From assembly GCF_023721715.1 (NCBI RefSeq), contig NZ_JAMDLG010000001.1, positions 3,325,784-3,389,783 of the forward strand: a stretch of DNA of 64,000 nt, read 5' to 3'. Both the position numbers and the translations under genes were made by a program. Numbering within the stretch: position 1 is the first letter of the stretch; the number at the start of each line of letters is the position of its first letter. The notes under the pieces were generated by a model. The model was given only the letters and a program-made list of their open reading frames with translations, made no database searches and was not told the origin of the DNA. This document shows, one piece after another, positions 33,496-34,851 of the stretch. The stretch comes from Parasegetibacter sp. NRK P23 (GTDB lineage: Bacteria > Bacteroidota > Bacteroidia > Chitinophagales > Chitinophagaceae).

Positions 33496-34839
33496 TTAAC
33501 CCAAATCGGCTTTCATCTGCAATAAAAATCCGCGTATTCTTTTCAGGGATTGTTCTATCTCGAAATTTTTCTCCGCCTTTTTCCGGTTGTTCTTTAAGAA
33601 GTCCTTCGCGCCTTCAATGGTAAATTTCTTGAGCCGGAGGAGGTTATGGATCATGTGCAGGTTCTTCACGTCGATGGGACGGAAAAGCCTGTCGCCCTTG
33701 CGGTTCTTTTTCGGGCGGATGATATCGAATTCGGTTTCCCAGAAACGGATGAGCGAGGTATTCACGTTGAACATCTTGGCCACTTCGCCGATCCCGTAAT
33801 ATTGTTTTTTGAACAGTTGCTCGTCTTCCGGGATTTCCACCATTTCAGCTTCCGCCATCATTTCGCGGATCGATTTCCGGCCCCGTTTGCTTTTGTTTTC
33901 CGCTGCCGCTTCTTTCTTCTCTTTCACCCGCACGATCACAACCGGTTTTGCATCCGTACCCGAGGAAGGTTTGGAGAACATCGGAATTTCAAACACTTCT
34001 TCATCGTCGCTGGCATCGGCCTTCTGGAAATAAGCGATTGAAACCTGCTTTTCAATGCCCGATTCTTCTTCGGGTGCATCGGGTTCCAGCTCAAATTCTA
34101 TGGGGCTATCATCTTCAGGTTCGGCTTCTTCAGCGAAAAACACGATACCCGCTTCAGGAGCTTTGGGGACTTCTGCATTTTCTTCCGTCCCTGAAATTTG
34201 TTTTTCCGTTCCCACTGGTGTAGGAGTGGACTCATCTTCCGGTTGTTCGGTTGGTATAGTCGTGGCTACTTCGGCAACTACATCACTTGATTCATTTGCT
34301 GAAACCGTATTTTCTTCTGCAACAAATGACGTTTCTTCTTCCGAAACATACTGTTCTTCTTCAGTAAGCGCAGTAGTTTCCGAAGGCTCCTCCGATACAA
34401 CTGCTTCTTCCGCTACAATTTCTCGGGCCGCATTATTTGCTTCTGAAGCCTCTTCAGCTACGAGAACCTCCTCCAAAACGGCTGCTTCGGTCGCTTCTTC
34501 CGAAGCCATATTTTTTTCCTCTACAGTTTCTTCTATTGCTGCCTGAGTTATGGGGGAAGGCACAAGTTCTTCCATAACTGCATCCCGGGTTTCGGGAACA
34601 ACAGTTACTGCAGGTTCCGCATCGACCTTGGGCAAGGCGCCTTCGGCCAGTATCTTATCCGGCGGTGGCGGTGTTAATCTTCTGAAACCATTATTGGTAT
34701 TACCTTTTGCGGATTCCGGCTGCGAGGCGTGCATTGCGCCGTTTCCGTTGACCGACGACTTTTTTTCTTCCGGCGCAGCGGTGGTTTCAGGCTGCGCGGG
34801 AGAAAATCCGAAATCCAAACTTATCTGAACAAACCCCAT
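33496..34839 (-). CDS. MerR family regulator with long acidic N-terminal extension
   Basis: A 447-residue protein. Residues 347-447 are a standard MerR winged-helix module (YYGIGEVAKMFNVNTSLIRF, FDIIRPKKNRKGDRLF, FTIEGAKDFL) as found in the small MerR protein beside alaS and the M23 peptidase in many Bacteroidota, where the whole protein is usually only about 110-120 residues. The first 346 residues are low-complexity and rich in Glu, Ala, Val, Ser and Thr (for example VAEEASEANNAAREIVAEEA), then a basic stretch ENKSKRGRKSIREMM precedes the DNA-binding domain. The extension is in frame without stops. Target genes are unknown. Confidence 0.85.
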   Translation of the reverse strand: MGFVQISLDFGFSPAQPETTAAPEEKKSSVNGNGAMHASQPESAKGNTNNGFRRLTPPPPDKILAEGALPKVDAEPAVTVVPETRDAVMEELVPSPITQAAIEETVEEKNMASEEATEAAVLEEVLVAEEASEANNAAREIVAEEAVVSEEPSETTALTEEEQYVSEEETSFVAEENTVSANESSDVVAEVATTIPTEQPEDESTPTPVGTEKQISGTEENAEVPKAPEAGIVFFAEEAEPEDDSPIEFELEPDAPEEESGIEKQVSIAYFQKADASDDEEVFEIPMFSKPSSGTDAKPVVIVRVKEKKEAAAENKSKRGRKSIREMMAEAEMVEIPEDEQLFKKQYYGIGEVAKMFNVNTSLIRFWETEFDIIRPKKNRKGDRLFRPIDVKNLHMIHNLLRLKKFTIEGAKDFLKNNRKKAEKNFEIEQSLKRIRGFLLQMKADLG

Positions 34840-34843
34840 GCGC

Positions 34844-34851
34844 CAAAAATA
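34844..34851 (-). promoter_or_regulatory. -7 promoter box 4 bases before the merR-like start
   Basis: The minus strand reads TATTTTTG (TAnnTTTG) and ends 4 bases before the ATG at 34839. If used, the transcript would start at or inside the start codon. Confidence 0.4.

Follow-up and report, generated by a model that had tools for sequence, protein, structure and literature searches.

To our knowledge, the known ligands of the sliding clamp are mainly polymerases and proteins of repair, transposition and initiation control. Classes of ligands are also treated in excerpts of two papers used here (PMC11139829, PMC4549789). According to the review excerpt, the bacterial clamp motif reads Q-phi-x-[L/M]-[F/L] or Q-phi-x-[L/M]-x-[F/L], pentamer and hexamer show no difference in affinity, QLDLF was the strongest peptide in several studies, LQLELDF was recovered by phage display and negative charge after the motif is favourable (PMC11139829). 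The same excerpt places the motif of Hda in a disordered N-terminus. In HdaA of Caulobacter, residues 4-9 are needed for the interaction with DnaN and for replisome localisation, the N-terminus alone being insufficient (PMC3836487, in excerpt). Clamp-linked regulators of transcription are described for phage T4, where gp33 and gp55 act with the clamp gp45 (PMC9690074, in excerpt). Similarly, the large subunit of CAF-1 unites a PCNA motif, acidic disorder and a winged helix in one chain; the winged helix of fission yeast CAF-1 did not bind DNA (PMC10942606, in excerpt).

Here we describe a MerR-type protein of 447 aa encoded in the window, i.e., the whole stretch of 64,000 nucleotides of Parasegetibacter sp. 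NRK P23 that was analysed. Like Hda and HdaA, it carries a putative clamp motif in its first ten residues (PMC3836487, in excerpt), but these are AAA+ proteins, whereas it is made of a MerR helix-turn-helix (HTH) and a long leash. By analogy, HdaA is the nearest precedent for the candidate hook. Pol IV and other Y-family polymerases also bear a clamp motif at a disordered end, such as QLSLSF in the same genome, but theirs is mostly C-terminal or placed after the little finger, and they are enzymes, not regulators. The likeness to the phage proteins gp33 and gp55 lies in a presumed role as clamp-linked regulators, and no homology is claimed with CAF-1, a eukaryotic histone chaperone with the same combination of parts. 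In the literature searched (titles and abstract starts), no paper on a MerR protein that binds the clamp was found, although one may still be in print, and none on an essential MerR protein of the Bacteroidetes was found by title.

Organization of the locus

The open reading frame runs uninterrupted from an ATG at 34839 to a stop codon ending at 33496 (Table 1), and a search of its own genome gave a single match. A Pfam search of the 447-aa protein returned MerR models only (PF13411, E = 1.5e-16), identifying a MerR winged HTH and no AAA+ domain of the Hda kind. The original prediction of a real, in-frame gene with its MerR module at the C-terminal end is thereby borne out, as are the acidic N-terminus (82 D+E vs 28 K+R in residues 1-346, net -54) and the short basic linker (net +5 in residues 300-330) that it had described. 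Third-position GC content is 0.686 in the core and falls to 0.419 in the extension, and internal ATGs occur near residue 328. An M23 peptidase gene on the same strand ends 78 bases upstream of the MerR gene, and alaS lies farther on in divergent orientation.

Table 1. Features of the MerR-type gene and its product, in positions of the window.
Feature	Position	Strand	Evidence
MerR-type protein, whole ORF, 447 aa	33496..34839	-	open frame, single genome match
QISLDF, residues 5-10, hexameric putative clamp-binding motif Q-phi-x-L-x-F	34810..34827	-	definition in PMC11139829 (excerpt), family conservation
Acidic low-complexity leash, residues 66-300, mostly low-confidence/disordered	33940..34644	-	net charge -56; AlphaFold2 pLDDT mostly <55 except helix 102-145
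Single predicted helix inside the leash, residues 102-145	34405..34536	-	AlphaFold2
Basic patch around KRGRKS, residues 314-325, before the HTH; possibly AT-hook-like	33865..33900	-	R319 G320 R321 invariant in 18 rows
MerR helix-turn-helix, residues 348-417	33589..33798	-	PF13411; Foldseek matches to MerR proteins
C-terminal helix, residues 419-446, a possible dimer helix	33502..33585	-	AlphaFold2
Promoter-like element TATTTTTG, matching TANNTTTG, four bases before the ATG	34844..34851	-	promoter-like element

In an AlphaFold2 model built on a 50-row alignment, the HTH and the C-terminal helix are confident, and the remaining linker is mostly of low confidence. Residues 1-100 have low pLDDT and no predicted structure, leaving the motif exposed in a disordered end. 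A predicted Glu/Ala-rich helix of 44 residues stands out within the otherwise low-confidence acidic leash, with pLDDT up to about 86 per block; it is possibly a stiff single-helix spacer. Foldseek retrieved ordinary MerR proteins, including RacA-DNA and GlnR-DNA. The HTH fold is alike in RacA-DNA, GlnR and BldC, which are MerR-like without effector domain (TMt 0.85, 0.79-0.82 and 0.73, respectively), but we know of no clamp leash in these three like the one proposed for the 447-aa protein.

Distribution and length in the Chitinophagaceae

The protein was found in single copy in 282 of 294 genomes of the family, taken as Chitinophagaceae on the strength of named relatives, and in 247 of the 249 near-complete ones. 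Twelve of the 294 gave no match, and a further search of five of these 12 with a C-terminal query again gave none. From all 282 positive genomes the locus was retrieved, its frames were parsed and the N-termini were compared. The gene product ranges from 133 to 998 aa. An extension, differing greatly in length between members, is common to most of the family and not special to this genome. Outside the family (53 loci), the short form of about 110-130 aa prevails, as originally stated for many Bacteroidota, and starts with MPYKE...LYYSIGEVA. This form shares a homologous HTH core and similar neighbours (M23 in 34/53 and alaS in 30/53 within 1.5 kb), but in 52 of 53 loci has neither the extension nor the clamp motif. 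Twenty further outgroup loci chosen for their long frames all lacked such an extension, the long frame there being an artefact. The comparison of orthologues that had been proposed as a check thus favours a genuine extension, given that the proteins of the family do not all begin at the HTH.

A collection of named relatives, the best 80 of 577 from an alignment scan, includes Niastella, Chitinophaga, Sediminibacterium, Ferruginibacter, Terrimonas and Chitinophagaceae MAGs, and partly repeats the same genomes; the motif was present in 77 of these 80 loci. In the 56 long loci of this set, mscS (46) and trx (34) lie downstream, alaS (35) and M23 (34) upstream. A scan of genome contigs with the single protein as query returned no match, and a pattern scan of viral contigs gave 11 matches with no phage relative among them.

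A motif conserved at the N-terminus

Family N-termini agree over their first twelve or so residues, and from there to the basic patch and the HTH they have little in common. Examples are MYKQLDLF, MRQLDLFG, MQQLSLFD, MAKQLTQITFDF and MDNRNYSQITFEF, next to MGFVQISLDF in the window. Motifs were accepted up to 18 residues from an in-frame ATG, GTG or TTG upstream of the HTH, with patterns slightly wider than the consensus in the review excerpt (PMC11139829). Under this rule, a Gln-type motif or close variant is present in 213/282 loci (213/279 unclipped), as 113 pentamers and 100 hexamers; QLDLF itself accounts for 74 loci and QLSLF for 16. The other loci have a hexamer without a preceding ATG, GTG or TTG (4/282), a Gln-less xxTLF form (53/282) or no motif (9/282), or are clipped by contig ends (3/282). 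A stricter rule (ATG only, at most 12 residues) retained 113 pentamers, 94 hexamers and 53 Gln-less forms among 279 loci, five of which present the motif at two places.

Among 291 other ORFs in 400 kb of the own genome, the motif occurred in two at the first start, in four when starts within 30 aa were admitted and in 10 with starts within 100 aa, the last being the fairest match to the motif rule. The Gln-type rule matched 1.25% of shuffled extensions and one of 53 outgroup loci, and exact QL[DS]LF was found in 90/279 family loci vs 0/291 ORFs of the own genome. An acidic excess is seen in the eight residues after the motif in 215/270 cases vs 37/270 in the six residues before it. The strict published consensus is fulfilled by QISLDF of the window but by only 129/279 loci, because Phe occupies position 4, where the consensus has Leu or Met, in 71 of 104 hexamers. 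Searching six genomes for Q-I-x-F-[DE]-F gave 21 matches, and the only ORF with one close to its start was that of the MerR protein (6/6 genomes), so that the Phe-4 form is without independent witness.

The Gln-less clade carries ILTLFGEE and has the RGR patch in none of its 53 loci. Fifteen of them with full 1.5 kb flanks had trx in all cases and neither M23 nor alaS; among Gln-type loci, M23 was found in 38/98. Two loci of genus g42 (L115 and L196) have MAQVILTLFGEE and MAQQVVLTLFGEE, in which Gln is retained upstream of an LTLF core, and perhaps represent an intermediate between Gln and Gln-less forms. Five of the nine motif-less loci belong to genus g15 (L034, L135, L136, L166 and L167), where motif and leash are lost; the single Y-family polymerase met in two of these genomes (G014 and G112) has a Gln-less VPLSLFEE. 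Genes L102, L138, L162 and L163 of genus g83 are the four that show no ATG, GTG or TTG at the conserved N-terminus, and a CTG at the expected start, preceded by TANNTTTG, suggests CTG initiation. The sole match among the 53 outgroup loci is L052 (G332), from another family of the same order; its longer N-terminus has RLQMHLDF, a strict hexamer that could be an independent gain or a relic.

A linker free to drift

Over 1500 of 2766 eligible pairs (70-90% core identity), identity was 69% in the motif, 29% in the linker and 76% in the core, i.e., the motif is conserved against drift. The linker spans 10 to 876 residues (L319), with a median of 76.5, or reaches 1005 when the start of L230 is set at the first of its motifs. 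This L230 (G184) is an open frame of 1131 aa that is headed by QLELF and has QIVMDF beyond residue 360; it may encode a leash of some 1000 residues or else a protein of smaller size. A segment that drifts in both length and sequence while its two ends are kept resembles a tether. RGR[KRPM] was found in 187/270 linkers.

Acidity was rejected as a conserved trait, only 147/270 linkers being net acidic. The median net acidic fraction per linker is 0.023, so that strong acidity is particular to members such as the 447-aa protein. The extension noticed at first is real and shared by most of the family, but what the members keep is its motif rather than its acidic bulk. Its proposed growth by repeats found little support and was set aside: Tandem Repeats Finder returned no row, and only three weak, dispersed families of direct repeats of 14-28 nt were seen. 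A disordered partner-binding segment, also proposed, is likely, but the hint at its partner, namely QISLDF in the first ten residues pointing to the sliding clamp, had been missed; a transcription-activating role of the extension may also be considered.

On a FastTree phylogeny of the HTH core (113 columns, 332 rows), the pentamer label changes 11 times and the hexamer label 6 times, and all five labels require 14 changes vs 175 for shuffled labels; these are rough minima on a poorly resolved tree in which 150/321 inner branches have less than 80% support. Since pentamer and hexamer are forms that one clamp pocket accepts, their exchange points to that pocket.

A proposed clamp tether and its alternatives

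We consider it probable (about 80%), judging from sequence, that a disordered leash ties this MerR-type DNA-binding protein to the sliding clamp of replication. The N-terminal QISLDF would dock in the peptide pocket of DnaN, and the disordered linker would serve as a leash whose length is of little consequence. The basic patch and the HTH would hold DNA at the same time as the motif holds the clamp. As a result, newly replicated DNA could receive or retain the protein, or a bound site could be held beside the replisome, presumably for replication-coupled re-binding of DNA or for regulation. The own genome yields one DnaN match. Its Pol IV (DinB) terminates in QLSLSF, and another Y-family polymerase has QINLF; DinB relatives in other genomes of the family end in QLTLF, QLSLF, QLRLF or QLKLF. 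Some Y-family polymerases of the family are Gln-less (VPLSLFEE, VAYTLFDN) and come close to the ILTLFGEE of Gln-less MerR proteins.

Several observations weaken the clamp reading. Loss of Gln weakens known clamp peptides, and the 53 Gln-less loci also lack the RGR patch and, in the 15 with full flanks, have other neighbours. The strict consensus is confined to 129/279 loci owing to the frequent Phe-4, nine loci are motif-less and the outgroup protein works without a hook. Moreover, the N-terminus of HdaA alone did not suffice for replisome localisation (PMC3836487, in excerpt).

That the long open frame is an annotation artefact, the true protein beginning near the HTH, would fit the internal ATGs, the lower third-position GC of the extension and the read-through seen in all 20 outgroup loci that had been selected by frame length. 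It was nevertheless rejected for the family because the N-termini are conserved: start codon and motif are kept in frame across its members, far from the 1.25% of shuffles. A promoter-like element also stands at the long start, as TANNTTTG, which we take to be the Bacteroidota -7 element, lies within 60 nt of that start in 58/256 family genes vs 10.8 in mononucleotide shuffles, and transcription from the long form is therefore favoured. We thus give the artefact almost no credence, although an additional internal start may exist besides the long one. A genuine N-terminal peptide might instead bind another partner, such as RNA polymerase, a protease adaptor or another scaffold, in which case the protein would be an ordinary regulator and its likeness to clamp ligands convergent. 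Both the Phe-4 hexamers and the ILTLFGEE clade depart from the published consensus, and the six genomes searched gave no second protein with the Phe-4 form close to the start of its ORF. Yet exact QLDLF and QLSLF recur in 74 and 16 loci, pentamer and hexamer exchange on the tree, and Gln-less endings are shared with the Y-family polymerases of the family. The delta subunit is moreover a natural Gln-less ligand through AMSLF, of low affinity alone (PMC11139829, in excerpt), and we find another partner rather improbable.

As a sub-case of the clamp tether, the hook might control the initiation or timing of replication, the protein sitting on loaded clamps and binding DNA of the origin or of replication genes in a role like that of Hda or YabA. 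A motif at the same N-terminal place as in HdaA and a single-copy protein in 282/294 genomes would suit this role, but the protein has no AAA+ domain and its neighbourhood genes give no pointer to initiation, so that we hold it to be unlikely. Tentative, and less probable than not, is the idea that the sliding clamp licenses the access of the regulator to DNA. The MerR protein would then ride behind the fork, either switching genes with replication, as a parallel in cells to the late transcription of T4, or rebuilding nucleoid structure on new DNA in a CAF-1-like role, and its leash would be free to grow to many hundred residues.

Implications for the family

The near-universal gene in the family and the outgroup form without hook suggest that clamp tethering came on top of a function that is older. 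The clamp-tether reading also accounts for a gene product that spans 133 to 998 aa. A hook kept across most of the family, next to a freely variable tail, suggests a regulator tied to DNA replication. If this is true, a regulator present in 282/294 genomes of the family, and mostly clamp-hooked, would link DNA-binding regulation directly to the passage of the fork.
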